Below the pieces are notes generated by a model. It made no database searches, was not told the DNA's origin, and saw only the letters and a program-made list of their open reading frames with translations. This document shows, piece by piece, positions 15,106-44,219 of a stretch of DNA of 64,000 bases (the first letter of the stretch is position 1; every line of letters starts with the position of its first letter). The DNA is taken from the NCBI RefSeq assembly GCF_003337555.1, contig NZ_QPJK01000001.1:682001-746000 (forward strand). Reading direction: 5' to 3'. The stretch is from Pseudorhodoferax soli (lineage in GTDB: Bacteria; Pseudomonadota; Gammaproteobacteria; Burkholderiales; Burkholderiaceae_C). The translations under genes were made by a program, and so were the position numbers.

Positions 15106-15930
15106 ATGTCATTTCTGAGCAATTTATCCATCGCAGACCGCGGACGCTGCTTCGATGTGCTGGCAGAAGTCGCGCACATCCGCACGCATGTGGATCTGGT
15201 CAATTGGTTACGTGGTGGCGTCCAGTACTTCATGCCGCACGACATCGTGGTTGCCGCCTGGGGTGACTTCCAGCGGGGCACCATCGGCCACGACATCGTC
15301 TTTCCACTGCGTGGCGTGCGCACGGCGCAGGCCAGCATGTCGGCCCTGGTCTCTCGGCTGCAGGAGTTGTTTGCCAACTGGTCCGCCCTGAACAAGCAGC
15401 CCTACGTGACCGCTGCCGACCGAATGAACGGCGTTCTCGGGCTTTCGCCGCAGCCCGAGCTGCTCCACTCGACCATCCCGGCCATGCGTTCTGCCATGGT
15501 GCATGGCCTGCGCGACCTGCGCGGTGAACAGGATTGCCTGTACGTCGTGCTGAGCCGCGAAGCAATCACCGAGAAAACAGGTACCGCGGCGATGACAGCG
15601 CTGCTCCCCCACATCGACATGGCGATGCGCCAGGCCGCGCTGCCCTCCAAGATCATCACGCAAGGCACCGCCTGCGGCGGACCTGCGCAGATCACCATCT
15701 CGCGCCACGGGCTGGACAACCCCGTGCCCGACAACGGCATGACCGGCCGCGAGTTGGAGATCATGCAATGGGTCGAAATGGGCAAGACCAACCAGGAAAT
15801 CGGCACCATCCTCGACATCAGCGCATTCACCGTCAAGAACCACCTGCAACGCATCTTCAAGAAGCTGGACGTCTACAACCGCGCCCAAGCGGTGTCCCGG
15901 CTGAAGAACAGTCATTACGCCCATGGATAG
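15106..15930 (+). CDS. epsA: LuxR-type transcriptional regulator EpsA (exopolysaccharide locus)
   Basis: 274 residues. The C terminus is a LuxR-type helix-turn-helix: LTxRE-like GMTGRELEIMQWVEMGKTN, then ISAFTVKNHLQRIFKKLDV. The N-terminal 200 residues are a family-specific sensor-like domain (VDLVNWLRGGVQYFMPHDIV) found in the regulator EpsA of exosortase-B/PEP-CTERM-associated polysaccharide clusters; I assign it by resemblance. It should activate the eps genes. Its end overlaps the phosphotransferase start by eight bases. Confidence 0.82.
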   Translation: MSFLSNLSIADRGRCFDVLAEVAHIRTHVDLVNWLRGGVQYFMPHDIVVAAWGDFQRGTIGHDIVFPLRGVRTAQASMSALVSRLQELFANWSALNKQPYVTAADRMNGVLGLSPQPELLHSTIPAMRSAMVHGLRDLRGEQDCLYVVLSREAITEKTGTAAMTALLPHIDMAMRQAALPSKIITQGTACGGPAQITISRHGLDNPVPDNGMTGRELEIMQWVEMGKTNQEIGTILDISAFTVKNHLQRIFKKLDVYNRAQAVSRLKNSHYAHG

Positions 15931-17347
15931 CTCTCCCATTCCCTTGACGCAAGTCAAGTCTGCGCCCGATGTCGCTGGCAGCGGTAGCCTGGGCAAGGAC
16001 CACCCCCTCAGCTTCATCGAATCGCTGATCGACCCCGGCATGCTGGTGCTGTCGCTGTGGGGCGTCGGGCTCTACCACACGGGCAGCCTGCGGCCCGAGT
16101 ACCTCATCCTGTCCGTCATCGTGTTTGCGATGACGTTTCCCGGCACGACGCAGATCCGCTCGTCGCTGCGCAAGCTGGTCACGCAGACCCTCATCAACTG
16201 GGCCGCCATCGCGGCGCTGCTGCTGGTGATGGGGGTGGCCACCGGATACAACCGCCACTTCCCTGTGGGCGCGCTTGTCATGTGGCTATGGCTGGCGCCC
16301 GTGTCGCAGATCGCTGCCCACCGCGCCCTGCGGCTCGCAGCTCCCGCCATCCTGGCCTTGCGCGGACCGCCGCGCAAAGCCGTGATCGTCGGCATGAACA
16401 CCCAAGGGGTGGCGCTGGCGCGCCGCATCCGTGAAACACCGTATTCCCAGATCGACGTCTCTGGCTTCTTCGACGACCGCGAACTGCATCGCCTGAACGC
16501 TCCGATGGGCTTCGGCCTGATCGACCGCCTCGCAGCCTTGCCGGCCTATGTCAAAGCCAACAATGTGCAGATGATCTATCTGTCGCTGCCCATGGCATCG
16601 CAGCCGCGCATCCTGCAGGTGCTCGACGGCCTGAAGGACACCACGGCCTCGATCTACTTCGTGCCCGACATGTTCGTGACCGACTTGATCCAGGGCCGCA
16701 GCGCATCGGTGTGCGGCACGCCCGTGATCTCGGTCTGCGAGACCCCTTTCCGCGGCACGACCGGCCTGGTCAAGCGTGGCTGGGACATCCTGCTGGCGTC
16801 CGTGATCCTGCTGCTGATCGCTCCGATCATGCTGGCGGTGGCCATCGGCATCAAGCTGACGTCCCCCGGCCCCATCATCTTCAAGCAACGCCGCTACGGT
16901 TTGGACGGCAAGGAGATCATGGTCTACAAGTTCCGCTCCATGACGGTGACCGAAGACGGCGAAAAGAGCTACACGCAGGTGAAGCGGGGCGATGCGCGCG
17001 TGACCAAGATCGGCGCCTTCATCCGCAAGACTTCGCTGGACGAGCTGCCGCAGTTCATCAACGTGTTGCAGGGACGCATGAGCGTGGTCGGCCCGCGGCC
17101 GCACGCGATCGCCGTGAACGAGCAGTACCGCAAGCTCATCTCCGGCTACATGATCCGCCACAAGGTGCGCCCCGGCATCACGGGTTGGGCGCAGGTGAAT
17201 GGCTTCCGGGGCGGCGACGACCTGGAGTCCATGCAACGGCGCATTGAGTTTGACCTCGATTACCTGCGCAACTGGTCGCTGCGGTTGGATCTGTACATCA
17301 TCGCGCGCACGGTGGGCGTGGTGTTCAAGGACACGAAGGCGTATTGA
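15923..17347 (+). CDS. Undecaprenyl-phosphate glucose-type phosphotransferase (initiating enzyme)
   Basis: A 474-residue membrane enzyme that transfers a hexose-1-phosphate to undecaprenyl phosphate, the first step of repeat-unit assembly. Four to five N-terminal hydrophobic segments and a Rossmann-like cytoplasmic region (AVIVGMNTQGVALARRI) precede one more membrane segment and the catalytic C domain: KRGWDILLAS, FKQRRYGLDGKEIMVYKFRS, the DELPQF motif with the catalytic Asp-Glu, VGPRPHA and PGITGWAQVNG. This is the WcaJ / PssY layout. The sugar (glucose is common) is not fixed by sequence. Confidence 0.94.
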   Translation: MDSSPIPLTQVKSAPDVAGSGSLGKDHPLSFIESLIDPGMLVLSLWGVGLYHTGSLRPEYLILSVIVFAMTFPGTTQIRSSLRKLVTQTLINWAAIAALLLVMGVATGYNRHFPVGALVMWLWLAPVSQIAAHRALRLAAPAILALRGPPRKAVIVGMNTQGVALARRIRETPYSQIDVSGFFDDRELHRLNAPMGFGLIDRLAALPAYVKANNVQMIYLSLPMASQPRILQVLDGLKDTTASIYFVPDMFVTDLIQGRSASVCGTPVISVCETPFRGTTGLVKRGWDILLASVILLLIAPIMLAVAIGIKLTSPGPIIFKQRRYGLDGKEIMVYKFRSMTVTEDGEKSYTQVKRGDARVTKIGAFIRKTSLDELPQFINVLQGRMSVVGPRPHAIAVNEQYRKLISGYMIRHKVRPGITGWAQVNGFRGGDDLESMQRRIEFDLDYLRNWSLRLDLYIIARTVGVVFKDTKAY

Positions 17348-18534
17348 CACCTGTTATGACACGACGGTTTCGTCCCGCGCCACGGTTGGCGATCCTGTTG
17401 GCGCTGTGGGCGGCGAGCGTAGCCGCCCAGGACGTGGATATTGACGCTTTAAAATTCAGTGCATCGCAAGGGCAGCGCTACGACAGCAACCTGTTTCGCC
17501 GCAGTACCAACGCTCGCTCGGAAACTTTGTCGACCACCACGGTGGGGCTGCAGTTGGACAAACGTTACTCGTTGCAGCGCGTGGAGCTCGATGTCAACTT
17601 GGCATCGAACCGCTACCGCAGCAACGACTACCTAAACTTCAACGCCGTGAATTACCGTGCCGTCTGGCATTGGAGTGTGACGCCGAGGCTGCGCGGTTCG
17701 ATCAGCAGAACACGCAGCGATGACATCAATACCTTCGACTACTTCCGCAGTTTTGACCGAAACGTTCGCACCGACATTAAGACTGGCGCCACTGCTGTAG
17801 CAGTGCTTGGGCGTGATTGGCTGCTCCTCGGCGGTATTGAGCGCGACGAGCGCAGCAACGAGCGGCCGACGGCTCAGTCCGGAGATTACACGTTGCGCAA
17901 CATTTCAGCTGGAGTTCGTCGGGTATTTCCATCAGGGAGCCGCATCAGCTACCGAGTTTTGGATGGCCAAGGCGACTACTTCAACAGAGTTCCCGGAGTG
18001 ACTGCAACGCCGACTGCTTACTCGCAGTTGGAACATGAAGTACAAGTTTCGTGGTCGGTCACTGCAAAAACAACAGTCAGCGCCACGCTCGGATATATAG
18101 ACAGAAAACATCGTGATTTGGCCGTGCGTGACTTTTCTGGCTTGCGCGGGAATTTAAATGTCAATTGGCGCGCAACAGGCAAGTCCGGCGTCCAATTGAC
18201 GCTGGCGCGCAGCATCAGTCCATACCAAACAAACACCGCAAGCTATACCGTTGGCAACCGCATCTCAATGTATCCTTACTGGAGCATTAGTTCTCGCGCG
18301 GCGGTCTACGCAAGCTTGGACCATCTCCGCTACTCATTCGACGGGGCACTGCCAGGCGTCGATAACAACGCTCGGGAAGACCGTACAAACATTGCAGGGC
18401 TCGGCGTGCGGTGGGAGCCGTTTGACGCACTATCGCTGAATGCAGGAGTTTATCGCGAACTGCGCACTTCCAATCTGGAGGGCTTTGGCTATTCCAATAC
18501 GTCGGCCCAGTTTTCGGCCAAGTTCGTGTTCTGA
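17344..18534 (+). CDS. epsL: EpsL-type outer membrane beta-barrel protein
   Basis: About 392-396 residues with a signal peptide (LAILLALWAASVAAQ, cut after Ala-Ala-type site), then alternating hydrophobic/polar strands and a C-terminal phenylalanine (SAKFVF), typical of an outer-membrane barrel. The N-terminal FSASQGQRYDSNLFRRS is shared by EpsL-like proteins of exosortase-B-type loci, proposed to pass polysaccharide through the outer membrane. The TTG start at 17344 overlaps the previous stop (TTGA) and has AAGG upstream; an ATG at 17356 is the alternative. Base composition is visibly more AT-rich than in the flanks. Confidence 0.8.
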   Translation: MTPVMTRRFRPAPRLAILLALWAASVAAQDVDIDALKFSASQGQRYDSNLFRRSTNARSETLSTTTVGLQLDKRYSLQRVELDVNLASNRYRSNDYLNFNAVNYRAVWHWSVTPRLRGSISRTRSDDINTFDYFRSFDRNVRTDIKTGATAVAVLGRDWLLLGGIERDERSNERPTAQSGDYTLRNISAGVRRVFPSGSRISYRVLDGQGDYFNRVPGVTATPTAYSQLEHEVQVSWSVTAKTTVSATLGYIDRKHRDLAVRDFSGLRGNLNVNWRATGKSGVQLTLARSISPYQTNTASYTVGNRISMYPYWSISSRAAVYASLDHLRYSFDGALPGVDNNAREDRTNIAGLGVRWEPFDALSLNAGVYRELRTSNLEGFGYSNTSAQFSAKFVF

Positions 18535-18544
18535 GTATGAGTTT

Positions 18545-19387
18545 ATGACCAACACAATTTTCTACTACATCTCGCCACTTGGCCGGCTACGCCACCTTAT
18601 CTTGGCCTTCGCGCTGCTGCTAACAGCGTTTCCGGCACTTTCTCAGAACGCAACAGCGCCCCAAGATTACCGCCTGGGGGCGGGCGACACCGTGCGCGTC
18701 CTGGTATTTCAAAGCCCTGACTTGACGGTGGAGGCGCGTGTCTCCGAGTCCGGGTCCATCACTGTCCCGCTGATCGGTAACACCGTGATTGGTGGGCTGA
18801 CCATCTCGGATGCCGAGCGGCACATCGCAAACGCATTGCGCGCTGGTGGCTTCCTGCAACAACCGCAAGTTAACATCGTCTTGGTCCAAGTGCGAGGGAA
18901 TCAAGTCTCGGTGCTGGGCCAAGTTCAACGACCAGGACGTTTCCCACTGGAGATTGCCAACACAAAGGTGTCAGACGTGCTGGCGATGGCAGGCGGCGCC
19001 ATGCCGACTGGCGACGACGTTGTTATCTTGATTGGAACGCGTGATGGCAAGGTCTTCCGCATGCTGATCGACATTCCAGCGCTGTTCCTGACGGAGGATT
19101 CCTCTGCCAATTTGCTTGTTATGGGTGGCGACACATTGTATGTGCATCGTGCACCCGTCTTTTATATATATGGCGAAGCGCAGCGCCCTGGTCCCTACCG
19201 CATCGAGCGCGGCATGACGGTCATGCAGGGGTTGGCGCAAGGCGGTGGCCCAACCAACCGCGGCAGCGAGACGCGCTTGCGCCTGCATCGGCGAGATGCG
19301 TCTGGTGTCGTACAACAAATCCAGCCCGAACTCACTGATATGCTCGAGCCCAACGACGTTATCTACGTGCGCGAGAGTCTGTTCTGA
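18545..19387 (+). CDS. epsE: Polysaccharide export protein EpsE (Wza-like)
   Basis: 280 residues: a signal peptide (HLILAFALLLTAFPALSQ) followed by the Poly_export domain (DYRLGAGDTVRVLVFQSPDL) and two SLBB domains (VSVLGQVQRPGRFPL near residue 123 and FYIYGEAQRPGPYRIE near residue 207). It should form the periplasm-spanning export channel with EpsF. No lipobox cysteine is seen at the cleavage site, unlike classic Wza lipoproteins. The frame is open upstream but the ATG at 18545 begins the signal peptide. epsL ends 10 bases before. Confidence 0.9.
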   Translation: MTNTIFYYISPLGRLRHLILAFALLLTAFPALSQNATAPQDYRLGAGDTVRVLVFQSPDLTVEARVSESGSITVPLIGNTVIGGLTISDAERHIANALRAGGFLQQPQVNIVLVQVRGNQVSVLGQVQRPGRFPLEIANTKVSDVLAMAGGAMPTGDDVVILIGTRDGKVFRMLIDIPALFLTEDSSANLLVMGGDTLYVHRAPVFYIYGEAQRPGPYRIERGMTVMQGLAQGGGPTNRGSETRLRLHRRDASGVVQQIQPELTDMLEPNDVIYVRESLF

Positions 19388-36661: not shown

Positions 36662-37533
36662 GCCCGCAGCTCCCGATCGGAAACGTCGGCCAAGGCGTGC
36701 TGATAGGCCTGCGCGTTGGCCCGCAGATGTGTCAATCGCGTCGTGCCCACAATCAGTGCCTCGACGGCGGGCAGGCTCAAAGCACTGCCCAGAGCCCCGC
36801 GCAGCGCTTGTTCCATGGAAACGCCATGCGGCGCCGCGGGCAGAAAACCTCGCAGCACAACGCGCTTGCCGTGCTGCGAAAGAGTGGCGAGCAAGTCAGG
36901 AGCGCGAACCGTCGCATCGAAAGCGAACTGGACAACGTCCACAGACTGATGCGTTCCGGCTTTCCACACCAATGCATCTTCATCGCAGGAGACGCCGAAT
37001 GCACGGAACAGGCCCTTGGCGCGCCACTGCTCGACGCGACGCAAAAGTTGCTCGTCGTCCAGCACGCCGGGGTCGGGGCTGTGCAGATAAAAGATATCGA
37101 GATGGTCGGTGCGCAGCCTTTTCAAGCTTTCAAGAAGAGAACGCTCCAGGTAGTCGGGCTCGAAGCAGCGAGGCACACCTTGCGCTCGATGGTCGGCGAC
37201 ACGCTTGTGGACTGCGCCGCGTTGCGCGGCGAGCCAGCGAATGGGCACTTTGAACTGCGAGATCAAAGCTTGTTTGGCGGTCAAGCGCTGGCCGGCCTTG
37301 CTGGCAAGAATCACCTCTTTCCGGCGAGCGTGCAAGGCCTCCCCAATATATCGTTCGCTGTCGCCCTGCCCATAAATGCTGGCAGTGTCGAAGTGGCGCA
37401 CGCCGAGTTCTAAAGCGGCATCCAACAGAGCGATGCATTCGCGCCGACTCAATGGGGTCAAGGCGGATCCGATGCGCGCGCACCCAAGCGCTAGCGTCGG
37501 CAATACGCGGTCGCCGCGATGACTCGAATTCAA
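36658..37533 (-). CDS. Aldo/keto reductase in the exopolysaccharide operon
   Basis: 291 residues. The catalytic tetrad is visible: Asp and Tyr in HFDTASIYGQGDSE, Lys in ILASKAG and His in FYLHSPD. The frame stays open upstream to 37665, but the TTG at 37533 has GGAG seven bases before it and overlaps the hydrolase stop (TTGA), so it is the likely start. It may reduce a sugar or a small precursor; the substrate is unknown. Confidence 0.85.
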   Translation of the reverse strand: MNSSHRGDRVLPTLALGCARIGSALTPLSRRECIALLDAALELGVRHFDTASIYGQGDSERYIGEALHARRKEVILASKAGQRLTAKQALISQFKVPIRWLAAQRGAVHKRVADHRAQGVPRCFEPDYLERSLLESLKRLRTDHLDIFYLHSPDPGVLDDEQLLRRVEQWRAKGLFRAFGVSCDEDALVWKAGTHQSVDVVQFAFDATVRAPDLLATLSQHGKRVVLRGFLPAAPHGVSMEQALRGALGSALSLPAVEALIVGTTRLTHLRANAQAYQHALADVSDRELRA

Positions 37534-38468
37534 CGTTGCACTCCAAAAGCGCGGAGGAATTCCGCCTCGGCGAGCGGACGCTTCCCGGACGACAGTTGGC
37601 CGTCGTAATCGGGGGCCTTGTAATCCCAGTAAATGTGGTACTTCACAGGGTTGGACTGAATCCACTGGATCATGTTGCGCATGAACACAGGATCGTCGCC
37701 GCCGCCATGGCCGTCCGGCCGACTACCGGTACCCCATTCCGGAAAGGACATCGGCTTGCCATGCTCTGCAGCGAAGCGGCGATGCCAATCCAGCCCGAAG
37801 CGCGCATTGCGAACCATGCCCCAGCGCTGCTCAGCGCTGAGCGAGGGGTTCCAGTTGCCGTTGTAGACGTCAGCACCGATGGTGTCGACAACATCGTCAC
37901 CGGGATAAGCCGCCTCTGGCGAAGGCGCGCCCGCATGGACGATCACACACCAATCGAACTGGAACTGTGCTCCTGGCACAGCGCGCATCGTCGTGACGAT
38001 CTGACGCCAGTAGGCCTTCCAGGATTCCGGGTCCTTCAGCGAATTCCAGTGGAACCATGCAGCGTTGAACTCCCAGCCAATGCGAATGGTCGCATTTGCA
38101 TGCCCGTGCTCAACAAGTGTCTGGGCGATCTGCCGAACGTGAGCGTTGTAGGCGCCCTGGCCTCCGGCTACCAGTGTCGAACTCCCGTCCTTGGGCAGCA
38201 TCGGCAAGCTGAACACCATTGCCTTGCCGGTGTTCTGCCAACATTGAGCGATCCATTTGGTGCTGGATCGCATCGCGCTCCAAGAGTCCTGCGCAGGGCC
38301 ATCGAGCACGACATCCACCTTCCGGCCCAACCACGTCTCGTGCGCCTTCAAGCGGTCACGGCCCGTGCAACCGGCACCTTGATAGGTCCCAAGAGCAGGC
38401 GGCTCTGCCGCTGGCGTCGCGCCAGCCATCGTGGCAGCCAGCGCGATCATCAAGAAATGCTTCTTCAT
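37530..38468 (-). CDS. Secreted glycoside hydrolase (GH26-like)
   Basis: 312 residues with a signal peptide (MKKHFLMIALAATMAGATPA). The domain resembles clan GH-A family 26 enzymes: acid/base glutamate in IRIGWEFNAAWFHW near residue 132 and nucleophile glutamate in SFPEWGTGS near residue 243. Within a polysaccharide operon it probably trims or cuts the product in the periplasm, or clears misrouted chains. A strong GAGGAG site precedes the ATG, which also overlaps the Wzy stop (ATGA). Confidence 0.8.
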   Translation of the reverse strand: MKKHFLMIALAATMAGATPAAEPPALGTYQGAGCTGRDRLKAHETWLGRKVDVVLDGPAQDSWSAMRSSTKWIAQCWQNTGKAMVFSLPMLPKDGSSTLVAGGQGAYNAHVRQIAQTLVEHGHANATIRIGWEFNAAWFHWNSLKDPESWKAYWRQIVTTMRAVPGAQFQFDWCVIVHAGAPSPEAAYPGDDVVDTIGADVYNGNWNPSLSAEQRWGMVRNARFGLDWHRRFAAEHGKPMSFPEWGTGSRPDGHGGGDDPVFMRNMIQWIQSNPVKYHIYWDYKAPDYDGQLSSGKRPLAEAEFLRAFGVQR

Positions 38469-39775: not shown

Positions 39776-40818
39776 CCTTTTCGACCTTCAGCCAATGTCG
39801 GCTCCATGCTCGGCGCCATAGCGGGTGTCCACCTCCGCTCCCGCACCGTGACCCATCCGCTGAAAAACCCCAACGCCCAGGACCAATGCATGGCCGCAGC
39901 CGCAGGCCCCGCCAGCAGCGCGCAAACGGACCGGCGCCGCAGCACCAGCTGCAGCGAGACGCCCACCAGAGACGCCAGGTAGATCCCAGGCCATAACAAT
40001 AACAGCGGCCACCACAGACTCAGCAGCACCGCCACGATGCAGGAACCCACATACCCAGGCACTGCCAACTGGCGCAAGCGCAAGGAGGAAGGGTGGCGAC
40101 GCACCGTGCGCGAGCGGCCGCGCCCGTAGTTGAAGTACTGCCGCCACAAGCCCCGCAAGGTGTCACGCGGGCTGTAGCCGATTCGAATGTCGGCATCCAG
40201 GTAGATGCGGCTGCCCAGTGCACGCTGGCGGCAGTCGAGTTCGGCGTCTTCGTTGTGCGTGAAGCTCTCGTCGTAGCCGCCAGCCCGGCGAAAGCTCTCC
40301 ATGCGGAACGCCGCATGGTGGCCATGGTCGATGAAGCCGCTGCGACGCCCACCACGGTGGGCGGATCCTCCCGATCCCAGCGGCGTGTCCGAAACCCAGG
40401 CAACGGCGCGCTGCAGGCAGTTGGAGCCGCCCGAATCCATGGGCACAACGACTGCATCGGCGTCTGTTCGCTCCAATGTGTCCACCAGGCGACGCACGAA
40501 GCCCGCCGGATACTCGGCGTGTGCGTCACAACGGACCAGAACATCGGCCGCCTTGCCCTCCACGCGCGCCGCCAAATTCACCGCGGCGCTCTGGACGCGC
40601 TGCGGGTTGGGCAGTAGCGACAGCCAGGGCCGGCTCTGCGCCAATTCGTGCACCCGCTCCACAGTGCCGTCGGTGCTGCCACCGTCAGCCACGACTATGC
40701 GCACGCGGTGCTGCTGTGGCCAGTCTAGCGCCAGTGTGTCCACCACGCTGTCGATGTGCGCACGCTCGTTGAGCGTGGGGATCACCACGAGGATCGACAG
40801 GCTGCGGTCAATGCTCAT
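39772..40818 (-). CDS. Family 2 glycosyltransferase, ExoA-like
   Basis: 348 residues from the ATG at 40818. Motifs are ILVVIPTLNERAHIDSVVDT, VADGGSTDGT, VRCDAHAEYP (DxD-type) and DESFTHNEDAELDCRQRA; two or three C-terminal hydrophobic segments (about 255-335) anchor it to the membrane, as in ExoA of succinoglycan synthesis. It overlaps the upstream epsG by eleven bases. Confidence 0.9.
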   Translation of the reverse strand: MSIDRSLSILVVIPTLNERAHIDSVVDTLALDWPQQHRVRIVVADGGSTDGTVERVHELAQSRPWLSLLPNPQRVQSAAVNLAARVEGKAADVLVRCDAHAEYPAGFVRRLVDTLERTDADAVVVPMDSGGSNCLQRAVAWVSDTPLGSGGSAHRGGRRSGFIDHGHHAAFRMESFRRAGGYDESFTHNEDAELDCRQRALGSRIYLDADIRIGYSPRDTLRGLWRQYFNYGRGRSRTVRRHPSSLRLRQLAVPGYVGSCIVAVLLSLWWPLLLLWPGIYLASLVGVSLQLVLRRRSVCALLAGPAAAAMHWSWALGFFSGWVTVRERRWTPAMAPSMEPTLAEGRKG

Positions 40819-41761
40819 TGAGCAGAACTCCCGCAATCTTGGCGTGCGAGCGTCCGATCTGCTGCACCAGGTCTTGCAACGCGTCCATGCGGGTGCGGTT
40901 GCGGCGCCCGATCACCAGTGCAGCACCGCAACGCGCAGCGAGCACGCGACTGTCAGCGCCGCGCACGCCGGCGGGCGTGTCGACCACCACATGATCAAAC
41001 CGGGTCAGCACGTCCTGCATGAGGAAGCTGAAACTGGGGCGTTGCATCAATTCCAGCGGATTGGGTGGCAGCGTGCCCACGGTTAGCAGGCTCAGGCCAG
41101 GCAGGCCCGGCACGTCCTGCTCGACATCGGCGGCGGCTCGGCCTGCCAGGATGTTGCTCAGCCCGGTGCCCGGCTGCATGCCGAACAACATGTGCTGGCG
41201 CGGAGTGCGCATGTCTGCATCGATCAGCAGCGTGCTCTCGCCCAACTGGGAGAAGGCCACGGCCAGATTGGCAGCAAAGTAAGTCTTTCCGTCGCCCACG
41301 TCGGGGCTAAGGATCGCGAGCGCCCGGCGCGGCTGGTCGGGCGCCAATACACCCATGAGCAACTGGCTGCGCACGTCGCGGAATACCTCCGCGGCATCGC
41401 TGAACGGATCGGTCGCGGTGACCAATTCATTGCTCAAGTCACCGCGACCGCCCTCGGCCGCGTAGGGGTAGTGGAATTGCTGTGACAACGCCCACAGCAC
41501 ATCGTCGCGCGATGCGAGCTTGAGGGCGATCGCCGCGTCACCAAAGCGCGTGCCATGCTGGCGCTGGTGCTGCAGGATGAGTTCGACCTGCCGCGCATCA
41601 AGTTTGCGCACTTCGCGGATGAGGTCGCCGATGGAGCGGTCGACAAGCTGACTTCCCGGCTCCGGTGTCGAAACAGCGGCCGGTGGGTCTGGGCGGGTGT
41701 CCAGTCCGTCATCGATCGCCGTCATGGAATGGAGCTTGGTGCGGCTTGGTTCTATGGTCAT
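40808..41761 (-). CDS. epsG: Chain length determinant P-loop kinase-like protein EpsG
   Basis: 317 residues. The N-terminal region (DRSIGDLIREVRKLDARQVE, FGDAAIALKLASRDDVLWAL) resembles a GspE/MshE N domain as in EpsG. The C-terminal half is a BY-kinase-type ATPase: Walker A SPDVGDGKTYFAANLA, Walker A' LLIDADMRTPR and Walker B HVVVDTPAG. Unlike Wzc/CapB it ends NEH with no tyrosine cluster, so autophosphorylation on a tail is not expected. It pairs with EpsF immediately upstream. Confidence 0.87.
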   Translation of the reverse strand: MTIEPSRTKLHSMTAIDDGLDTRPDPPAAVSTPEPGSQLVDRSIGDLIREVRKLDARQVELILQHQRQHGTRFGDAAIALKLASRDDVLWALSQQFHYPYAAEGGRGDLSNELVTATDPFSDAAEVFRDVRSQLLMGVLAPDQPRRALAILSPDVGDGKTYFAANLAVAFSQLGESTLLIDADMRTPRQHMLFGMQPGTGLSNILAGRAAADVEQDVPGLPGLSLLTVGTLPPNPLELMQRPSFSFLMQDVLTRFDHVVVDTPAGVRGADSRVLAARCGAALVIGRRNRTRMDALQDLVQQIGRSHAKIAGVLLNEH

Positions 41762-41778: not shown

Positions 41779-43197
41779 TCAGTTGGATTGGCGCTGGGTT
41801 GGTGTCCCACCAGCAATCTGCGCAGTCCAGCCCACACTGCGGACTGGACGCCTAGTCCGGTCGGGCATCGTTCCCAGCAATGGCAGATGCAATCCGCGCA
41901 GAACGTCCTGTTCTGTGCGGAGCCGGCGATCACGCATCTCGGTGCCCAGCGCTGCAGCCATTGCCAGAAGAGTGGCTGCAAGAACTGCAACAGCCATGTT
42001 CAATACCACTCGCGGCTCCGACGGGCTCGTCGGCTCGGTGGCCTCTTTCAGCACGCTGACGTTGGTCTGCGTGGACTGACTCTCTATGTTCGTCTGGCTC
42101 ACCCGCGCCATGATGGTGTCATAGGCTCGCCGTGCATTCTCGACATCGCGCTGTAGAACTCCCGCTTCGTCGCGAAGCGCTCGCAGTTGCAGCAACCTGG
42201 CACGTTGCTCTTCCACGGCAGCACGCAACTGTTCCAGACGCGCCTGGTTCACATTGTTGGTTACGGTGATGCTACCGGTCACCCGGCGCGTTTCAGCGTC
42301 TATGGTGGCCCGGAGGTCGGCGATCTTGGCTTTGAGCTCAAGCATTTCCGGATGCCGCTCGCCCAGCCGCTCGCCGAGTTCTTTATTTCGCGCTTCCTGC
42401 CGTCCAAGCTCCGCAGTCAGATTGACGATAACCGGGTTGGACAACACCTCGGGCATGCGGTCGGCATTCGCAACCGCTTGACTCTGACGTCCACCGGTTT
42501 CATTGGCCACACCCTGCAGCGCGACCAGCTGCGAGGACAACTCGACAAGACGCAGGTTCTCAACATCGACGCGTTCGTCAGTTGCCACGAGACCGTGCTC
42601 GCGCTGATAGGCCGAGAGCTTTGCCTGGGCGCGCTCGAGATCCTCGCGCAGTTGCTTGCCATAAGTGTCGAAGAATCCGCTGTATTGCCGCGCCGGGTCA
42701 ACGCGCAATTCCAGAGTCGTGTCGATATAGGCTTTCACCCAGGCATTTGCGATCTGTGCCGCCCGCAAAGAGTCCGACGAGGTGTAGGCCACAGTGATGA
42801 CGTTCGAGTCGCGCGTGGCCAAGGCCTCCATGTCACGCAAAAGCGAGCCGGCAAGTGCGGCGCTGAAATCACCGCGGCCTTCGTTGGCCTCGAGCCAACG
42901 CTTGCGGCGCTCTTCGTCCTTGTCCCATCCCAAGGCCTGCGCAACACGCAAGGCCACACGGTCACTGCGCACAACCCCAAGTTGGGTGCCCATATAACTA
43001 CTGTTGGCCATGCCTGGCAATATGACCCCTGCAATGGGATCGGGCGACTTGACATCAAGCACAACCGAAGCAGTCGCCGTGTACTTCGGCTCCTTCAGCA
43101 AGGTCACTGCAGCGACCAAAGCCACCACCGTCACCCATACCAATGCCGCCAACTTCCAGCGGGCACGCAACAGCACAAAAATTTCCGCAAGTCTCAT
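41779..43197 (-). CDS. epsF: Chain length determinant protein EpsF (Wzz/PCP family)
   Basis: 472 residues with the PCP layout: an N-terminal membrane segment (LAALVWVTVVALVAAVTLL), a Wzz domain, a long coiled-coil-rich periplasmic part at about residues 190-370 (many E/Q/L heptads, RQEARNKELGERLGERHPEM), and a second membrane segment (NMAVAVLAATLLAMAAALGT). It sets polymer length and links EpsG to the EpsE channel. AGGAGAG precedes the ATG. It is the first gene of the minus-strand operon, divergent from the small secreted protein gene. Confidence 0.92.
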   Translation of the reverse strand: MRLAEIFVLLRARWKLAALVWVTVVALVAAVTLLKEPKYTATASVVLDVKSPDPIAGVILPGMANSSYMGTQLGVVRSDRVALRVAQALGWDKDEERRKRWLEANEGRGDFSAALAGSLLRDMEALATRDSNVITVAYTSSDSLRAAQIANAWVKAYIDTTLELRVDPARQYSGFFDTYGKQLREDLERAQAKLSAYQREHGLVATDERVDVENLRLVELSSQLVALQGVANETGGRQSQAVANADRMPEVLSNPVIVNLTAELGRQEARNKELGERLGERHPEMLELKAKIADLRATIDAETRRVTGSITVTNNVNQARLEQLRAAVEEQRARLLQLRALRDEAGVLQRDVENARRAYDTIMARVSQTNIESQSTQTNVSVLKEATEPTSPSEPRVVLNMAVAVLAATLLAMAAALGTEMRDRRLRTEQDVLRGLHLPLLGTMPDRTRRPVRSVGWTAQIAGGTPTQRQSN

Positions 43198-43274
43198 CTG
43201 AGGGCTCTCCTGAAGACGGCGATTCTCGGCCCAGTCGGCCTTGGCACAGCCTTCGATAGTACTTTCAGGCCACT

Positions 43275-43311
43275 TAGTCCATTTGGACTATTGCTGCACT
43301 GCACAATAGTC
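43275..43311. promoter_or_regulatory. Overlapping palindromes in the epsF / small-protein divergent promoter region
   Basis: Two perfect dyads overlap in the middle of the 165-base gap. The first is TAGTCCA-TT-TGGACTA (43275-43290); the second has arms GACTATTG (43286-43293) and CAATAGTC (43304-43311) around ten bases. They lie about 75-85 bases from both start codons, well placed for one regulator to control both directions. The regulator could be EpsA, but nothing in the sequence proves it. Confidence 0.5.
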
Positions 43312-43362: not shown

Positions 43363-43692
43363 ATGCGGAATATTTTTTCCATCGCAGCATGCGCGCTTGC
43401 CCTCACATGTGCCGGAACGGCGCAGGCCGCAAACGAGTCGGGCACTGTGTCTTCCGTGACGAACCAGATCACTGGCCAGTTGCAGCAATTGGCCCAGTTC
43501 GCACAAGGAAATCCCACCACAGCACCGAAGACCCAGACGGCTTTCGACGCAGGGGGCACCGGCAGCCGCAGCCGTACTGCGGCCACCGCGCCGGCTCTGG
43601 AGGCTGAAGAGCAGACCGGCCAGGCGATGCTTCTGGCGGGCTTGCTGGTCATGGGTGTCATCATCAAACGCCGCTACGGCAAGCGCGACTGA
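43363..43692 (+). CDS. Small secreted protein with C-terminal membrane segment and basic tail
   Basis: 109 residues that I do not recognise. A signal peptide (MRNIFSIAACALALTCAGTA, cut after AQA) is followed by about 60 polar residues (Q/N/T/S/A-rich, no cysteine in the mature part), then GQAMLLAGLLVMGVII and KRRYGKRD. This architecture, signal peptide, low-complexity linker, short hydrophobic helix and Arg/Lys cluster at the very C terminus, is that of PEP-CTERM-like sorting signals, but the PEP motif itself is absent; EAEEQTG takes its place. AAGGA lies seven bases before the ATG. Divergent from epsF. Confidence 0.75.
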   Translation: MRNIFSIAACALALTCAGTAQAANESGTVSSVTNQITGQLQQLAQFAQGNPTTAPKTQTAFDAGGTGSRSRTAATAPALEAEEQTGQAMLLAGLLVMGVIIKRRYGKRD

Positions 43693-43736: not shown

Positions 43737-44219
43737 TCATCCGGCTGAGCCCTGCTGCTCACAGCGCGTGATCTGCTGACCGGAGACGGACTCCAGCGCC
43801 GAGGCTGGCACCAAGCCGGGCTCGATCTCGGCCAGGGGCTGTAGCACGAATGCGCGCTGCCACATGCGCGGGTGCGGGATCTTCAACCGCGGCAGATCCA
43901 GCGCACGGTCGGCGTACAGCAGCACATCGAGATCCAGCGTACGCGGTGCGTTGACGTACGGACGCTCGCGGCCCGCCTGCAACTCGAGCGCCTGCAAGCC
44001 ATCCAGCAGATCCAGCGGCGACAAGTGCGTCGCCAGCTTTGCCACAGCATTCACGTAGTCCGGACCACCCGCTTCGACCGGTGCACTGCGGTACAGCGAC
44101 GATGAGCACACGAGGCGCGTGCCTGGCAGGCGGTCCAGTGCTGCCAGAGCCCACAAGACGGCCGCCCGCGCATCGCCCAAGTTGCCGCCCAGGCCGACGA
44201 ACGCACTGGCGGCCGCCAC
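43737..44219 (-). CDS. folK: 2-amino-4-hydroxy-6-hydroxymethyldihydropteridine diphosphokinase
   Basis: 160 residues. HPPK transfers pyrophosphate from ATP to the pterin in folate synthesis. VGLGGNLGDARAAV opens the protein; SLYRSAP, the RTLDLDVLLY motif (ATP/Mg-binding aspartates) and IPHPRMWQRAFVL are all present. Start is GTG at 44219, three bases after pcnB, with which it forms an operon. Confidence 0.96.
   Translation of the reverse strand: MAAASAFVGLGGNLGDARAAVLWALAALDRLPGTRLVCSSSLYRSAPVEAGGPDYVNAVAKLATHLSPLDLLDGLQALELQAGRERPYVNAPRTLDLDVLLYADRALDLPRLKIPHPRMWQRAFVLQPLAEIEPGLVPASALESVSGQQITRCEQQGSAG

Follow-up and report, generated by a model that had tools for sequence, protein, structure and literature searches.

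A small protein beside epsF with an exosortase-B-like C-terminal helix and basic tail but no PEP motif

The systems closest to the protein described here are the PEP-CTERM proteins and their exosortases. EpsF is present in 121 of 299 family genomes (E up to 1e-60), and exosortase B (XrtB) exceeds its cut-off in 90 of the 299. In the EpsF loci fetched from XrtB-positive genomes, XrtB lies within about 9 kb of epsF in 37 of 37 cases, against none of the 29 other loci, so that an absent XrtB is a departure from the common arrangement, though not a rare one. On the functional side, PepA of Aquincola is a PEP-CTERM protein involved in floc formation (PMC9850573).

Substrates of different exosortases differ in their helices. 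XrtB-type tails read ETYAMLLAGLGxMGxxARRR, and XrtA-type tails read xSLALLGLGLxGLAAxRRR. The XrtB-type set (31 sequences) was drawn from 16 genomes whose matches were of XrtB level only, together with 5 tails from XrtB loci, 5 of the 31 coming from genomes that also have an XrtA-level match. The XrtA-type set (57 sequences) was drawn from the genome of the present strain (G000) and 15 genomes with XrtA-level matches only, and half of it is from G000, which also has XrtQ. The loci used were the best-scoring matches of each search, and XrtB-only or XrtA-only status was judged from a single XrtB (TIGR03113) search. Profiles of the two helices, both built without PEP, score 30 of 31 and 56 of 57 sequences higher with their own model, these being the training sequences themselves, without cross-validation. 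The PEP-CTERM helix sequence may carry enzyme specificity. By eye, the XrtB-type helix is also about one residue longer than the XrtA-type (loci L003-L032, L158-L187 and L192-L221, about positions 1500-1600).

The window, by which we mean the whole stretch of 64,000 nucleotides of Pseudorhodoferax soli that was analyzed, holds an eps cluster at about 14-44 kb. One end comprises a Wzb-like phosphatase, EpsA, a WcaJ-type transferase, EpsL and EpsE; towards the other lie two Wzx-like flippases, glycosyltransferases, pyruvyltransferase-like proteins, a GH26 protein, EpsG and EpsF (Table 1). A sequence-only reading had placed a small secreted protein, here P0001, at the edge of an EpsA/L/E/F/G locus of the kind tied to exosortase B. 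EpsA, EpsL, EpsE and EpsF are borne out by NCBIfam models and EpsG stays below its cut-off, while the edge proves to be the F/G end of the cluster, some 24 kb from EpsE. Such loci often carry XrtB, as the reading supposed, and the window locus does not. The GH26 (mannanase family) protein inside the cluster, at 37530-38468, has a signal-like start and is possibly a polymer-trimming hydrolase.

P0001 is divergent from epsF and has folK on its other side. The region between epsF and P0001 contains an element that is strongly conserved in five aligned genus genomes (G175 was left out of the alignment), with inverted repeats at 43275-43281/43284-43290 and 43281-43293/43304-43316. Its patterns have no second copy in the window at up to 1 or 3 mismatches, and the element is possibly an operator for both divergent genes.

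Table 1. Features of the window that bear on P0001
Feature	Coordinates	Strand	Remarks
P0001, small secreted protein	43363-43692	+	109 aa; in the ORF list; homologues in 6/6 genus genomes; dN/dS <1
Signal-peptide-like residues 1-22, ending AQA	43363-43428	+	candidate cleavage site, judged by eye
Residues 82-84 (EEQ), place of a would-be PEP	43606-43614	+	varies among homologues
C-terminal hydrophobic helix, residues 88-101, AMLLAGLLVMGVII	43624-43665	+	XrtB-type PEP-CTERM-like, without PEP
Basic tail KRRYGKRD, residues 102-109	43666-43689	+	R103 and R104 invariant in 15-row alignment
EpsF, chain length determinant	41779-43197	-	TIGR03017, over cut-off
EpsG-type tyrosine kinase	40808-41761	-	TIGR03029 is best match, 273 bits, below cut-off of 313.8
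EpsA regulator	15106-15930	+	TIGR03020, over cut-off; model named XrtB/PEP-CTERM-associated
EpsL outer-membrane protein	17344-18534	+	TIGR03014, over cut-off; XrtB/PEP-CTERM-associated in NCBIfam
EpsE export protein	18440-19387	+	TIGR03028, over cut-off; true start probably 18545
folK	43737-44219	-	named from sequence, without a model
Conserved epsF/P0001 intergenic element	43272-43309	.	inverted repeats within and adjacent to it; candidate promoter/operator of both genes

The outline of P0001 given by the sequence-only reading was confirmed: a signal-peptide-like start (MRNIFSIAACALALTCAGTAQA), a polar middle of about 60 residues, and then QAMLLAGLLVMGVII followed by KRRYGKRD as the extreme C-terminal end, with no PEP motif. 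Visual inspection and a simple hydropathy filter both mark the N terminus as signal-like. An AlphaFold model of P0001 has low confidence overall (mean pLDDT 53.7), with helices at residues 4-21 and 81-108, and only the C-terminal helix is fairly confident (pLDDT 78 over residues 91-100). No Pfam or NCBIfam family scores above its cut-off for P0001, an inner-membrane tail-anchored family included, and the protein is missing among the 40 PF07589 matches in its own genome (E up to 10).

P0001 is a real gene: it stands beside epsF, and divergent from it, in all six genus genomes, and its dN/dS is below 1 (0.32 over the whole protein between G000 and G300). In the sixth genome, G301, the copy has diverged (E 1e-4) and its position is unchanged. 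The helix and RR tail are the most constrained part of the protein. Between G000 and G300, residues 87-109 are 96% identical with a dN/dS of 0.10, against 69% and 0.39 for residues 23-80, and the constraint on the C terminus is stronger than on the middle in four of four pairs. Among the first five sequences 17 columns are invariant, 13 of them within the last 21 residues.

Relatives beyond the genus were found by a profile search of 399 family genomes, by reading of EpsF loci and by tblastn. They come from four other genera (G243, G039 and G162; G099, G200 and G274; G176; G272, G198 and G097), and the family ranges from 65 to about 134 aa. In tblastn, run with seg off and without composition correction, G099 matched G176, G200 and G274 at E 1e-13 to 1e-14 and G243 at 1e-5, and G198 matched G272 at 3.5e-8 and P0001 at 5e-6; P0001 matched G243 at 5e-4, against 1e-3 for the best chance match. 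G097 was linked to G198 at 9e-9. Chance matches are numerous with Ala-rich queries such as that of G272, so that links through g97 members are weaker. The weak sequence links of G243, G039 and G162 are backed by gene order: the G039 and G162 copies adjoin folK and pcnB, like that of the window, and the G243 copy lies between DUF47/pitA and wcaJ with pcnB nearby. In G099, whose genes alone were checked by model, the gene lies between galE and wzx, with wzy next. The galE-small gene-wzx order recurs in G200 and G274, and the G176 copy is directly 5' of a wzx-like gene. The G243 region (L234, 8632-13984) looks like a collapsed eps island, in which DUF47, the small PEP-less protein, wcaJ and pcnB lie near one another, and the EpsF/XrtB locus of that genome is on a different contig.

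The searches differed in reach. The profile search, which scored 11 candidates per genome, returned 16 matches and did not include the members of G097, G162, G176, G200, G272 and G274, which came from locus reading. The locus scan reported a row only if it had a PEP-like triplet or a helix of strong hydrophobicity, and its signal-peptide filter missed G200 and G274, which tblastn recovered. Searching 299 family genomes with the single sequence picked out 14 at E up to 0.01: 4 belong to the genus (1e-64 to 9e-5), and 10, at 9e-4 or worse, lie outside it. Four of these 10 were examined: G198 is a member, G296 and G201 are PEP-CTERM proteins, and the G217 match lies among PEP-CTERM genes. With few candidates scored per genome in the family searches, absence elsewhere in the family means little. 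In G217, an XrtB genome, two PEP-CTERM proteins are followed by a 56-aa protein that ends TPDANSGGLVLAGLGLMATIARRRFK and has no PEP (L056, 6546-7861). Neither this protein nor that of G246 was accepted as a certain member, since their surroundings differ and G246 is rated 6% contaminated.

Collected and aligned, the homologues keep the C-terminal helix. The consensus of a 15-row alignment (without G097) is MLLAxLxxMGVIxxRR, with I100, R103 and R104 invariant and L94 and M97 nearly so. PEP is absent from the pre-helix region in all 15 rows, and nothing is conserved across the alignment at the place that it would occupy. The proposal of the sequence-only reading that EAEEQTG substitutes for PEP was rejected, since relatives have DSNN, INRPT, GWRSY, HRGGA and so on at that place. 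The best E value over the 15 members is 0.0033, to an NCBIfam PEP-CTERM family, and PF07589 reaches 0.028 in one member.

Strong conservation in this alignment is confined to the helix and tail, and that also speaks for a reading in which an undescribed or non-exosortase intramembrane protease, rhombosortase-like, processes the family as a new sorting system. Rhombosortase (PMC3237569) and myxosortase (PMC11980579) serve the same outline. We regard such a protease as unlikely, given that no conserved motif stands ahead of the helix, that GlyGly-CTERM (TIGR03501) has no match in the 15 members at E up to 1 and MYXO-CTERM a single one at E 0.15, and that the neighbors vary by genus (epsF, folK, galE/wzx, wcaJ) with no recurring protease among those annotated.

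In the EpsF loci read, members of the family go with the absence of XrtB. Loci were read about 29 kb to each side, less far on one or both sides in G099 and G097, and the window's genus was counted once, from the window itself. Eight of the 11 XrtB-less loci hold a member (the window's genus, G099, G200, G274, G162, G176, G272 and G097), and those without one within reach are G098, G199 and G198, the last having its copy at a distance of about 33 kb. None of the XrtB-bearing EpsF loci holds one (0 of 12, from 12 genomes, 36 loci and 711,636 bases read); 17 places in XrtB loci matched a family C terminus, of which 9 are PEP-CTERM tails and 8 are without the helix-plus-RR end. Fisher's test for 8/11 against 0/12 gives p = 3e-4 (7e-4 with 7/10, before G097), a value that overstates the link to XrtB, since loci within a clade lack independence. 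In an EpsF tree with 55 rows (the 11 most remote of 66 being omitted), the 14 XrtB-less carriers need 4 changes, at least 3 of them forced by well supported branches; the figures become 5 and 4 with G097 as a non-carrier. G243 carries its copy in a different island despite XrtB on another contig. Loss of PEP together with XrtB and its gain with XrtB are indistinguishable.

The helix of P0001 scores 18.6 bits with the XrtB-type model and 2.7 with the XrtA-type model. The median of XrtA-type tails is 14.0 under the XrtB model (31.4 under their own), so that XrtB is indicated by the difference between the two models and not by the score as such. The C terminus that looked like a sorting signal in the sequence-only reading is specifically conserved and is nearer to XrtB-type than to XrtA-type helices. 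The 15 tails scored include those of G246 and the G217 56-aa protein, which are not counted as certain members; under the XrtB-type model 11 score above 9 bits and G175 scores 7.4, and G246 is about equal with both models. XrtB-type scores for G200 and G274 are 13.5 and 8.0. Overall, a relationship of the P0001 helix and tail to the exosortase-B-type PEP-CTERM domain is supported, although not proved.

Convergence would make P0001 an ordinary small bitopic protein, with a leucine-rich helix and a positive-inside tail. Any single-pass helix followed by RR gives such an outline, the tails of G162, G272 and G198 do not score as XrtB-type, genera resemble one another weakly beyond the C terminus, and the score of P0001 is far below that of true XrtB-type tails (median 47.5 with their own model). 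The match, however, depends on residue order: 0 of 300 shuffles of the P0001 helix reach 18.6 bits, and of 172 natural helices with basic pairs after them 3 do so, namely a PEP-CTERM variant and two members of the family. The family, moreover, is found in XrtB-less loci and not in the XrtB loci read, and we consider convergence improbable.

The exosortases of the strain itself lie elsewhere. Its genome (8.16 Mb) has two by PF09721, XrtA (TIGR03109, 355 bits) and XrtQ (356 bits), both outside the window, so that the sequence-only reading was correct to see none among the genes before it. For XrtB, the best TIGR03113 score in the genome is 55.8 bits (cut-off 275), from its XrtA, and the window locus has none. 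Canonical PEP-CTERM proteins over the cut-off number 31 in this genome. XrtQ (contig C4, L035, 7009-10445) is directly 3' of a TIGR03788-like protein (below cut-off; marine proteobacterial sortase target) that ends in TPEPETLGAVLLVLSVLAMLQRR and a basic tail, an apparent dedicated pair. The genus genomes tested have two PF09721 matches each, one of XrtA and one of XrtQ strength; XrtA was confirmed in G000 and G301 and XrtQ in G000, G253 and G301, and G299 looks the same as G300.

Other carriers vary. PF09721 matches nothing in four of them, G099, G176, G272 and G274, at E up to 0.001, a threshold that a very divergent enzyme could escape; three of these genomes are single-contig and rated 99-100% complete, and G274 is in about 40 contigs and rated 99%. 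XrtA occurs alone in G039 and G162, an XrtA-level match together with XrtB in G243, two unclassified exosortases in G097, XrtQ alone in G198 and one XrtO-like enzyme in G200, and no single type was found in all carriers. That XrtA or XrtQ cuts P0001 at a non-PEP site and hands it to the surface polymer, the variant-cargo proposal of the sequence-only reading, is therefore quite improbable despite the intact tripartite outline, the two exosortases of the genus genomes and the canonical PEP-CTERM proteins of this genome, because four carriers lack any exosortase match, the carriers share no type, P0001 is unlike the genome's XrtA substrates and the would-be PEP place is unconserved.

The reading that we favor, with moderate confidence, is that P0001 works without an exosortase, as a bitopic inner-membrane accessory of Wzx/Wzy-type polymer assembly whose C terminus is related to an XrtB-type sorting domain but has no PEP. 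The best fit is thus with the alternative that the sequence-only reading offered, a membrane-anchored accessory of the polymer, its topology and function being deduced from sequence features. P0001 would be exported by Sec and its signal peptide removed, and the C-terminal helix would halt it in the inner membrane with the KRR tail in the cytoplasm, as the positive-inside rule predicts. With no PEP P0001 should stay anchored, and in view of the missing motif at the membrane surface and of loci without XrtB it is most likely an uncut, type I bitopic protein. The conserved L-A-x-L-x-x-M-G-x-I face of the helix may pack against a partner in the membrane, for instance EpsF, Wzx or Wzy, and P0001 would then most likely act as an accessory of Wzx/Wzy polymer assembly. 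We count against this anchor reading that the two exosortases in each genus genome could act on P0001.

More tentatively, and with doubts that outweigh our confidence, the XrtB-type helix and tail could have a function of their own, by which a small exported protein docks to the machinery of exopolysaccharide assembly, a function that would persist as a permanent PEP-less anchor where XrtB is absent, on several branches of the EpsF tree. If so, docking through the helix would come first for PEP-CTERM proteins, and release by the exosortase would follow. What the data present is a related helix and tail under purifying selection without PEP, with relatives in four genomes that have no exosortase match. 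If P0001 is uncut, the anchoring part of the tag is here separated from its processing, and the family would be a natural set of variants expected to stay uncut. The comparison of models also suggests that the sequence of the helix, besides PEP, distinguishes XrtA from XrtB substrates. In titles and abstract openings of the literature on exosortases and PEP-CTERM proteins, a scope that mostly excludes subscription papers, no PEP-less relatives were found.

Set beside the known systems, P0001 most resembles the PEP-CTERM/XrtB pair, with which it shares the type of locus (EpsA, EpsL, EpsE, EpsF, EpsG-like), an AMLLAGLxxMG-type helix with a basic tail and a signal-peptide-like N terminus. It differs in that the relatives read are without PEP, that its genome has no XrtB and some carriers no exosortase match, and that PEP-CTERM proteins seen near XrtB are longer than those of this family. 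With the PEP-CTERM/XrtA system of its own genome it shares the tripartite outline, but not the helix, P0001 scoring 2.7 bits under a model that gives XrtA-type tails a median of 31.4. Compared with the PF07589/TIGR02595 domain, it has a helix of the family type and a C-terminal basic cluster, but not the near-invariant Pro-Glu-Pro. GlyGly-CTERM/rhombosortase and MYXO-CTERM/myxosortase are alike in the C-terminal outline of motif, helix and basic tail. PepA of Aquincola (PMC9850573) differs in being a PEP-CTERM protein, whereas P0001 has no PEP and does not match the PepA model at E up to 1; exported and tied to an exopolysaccharide system, PepA is nevertheless the nearest functional parallel seen.
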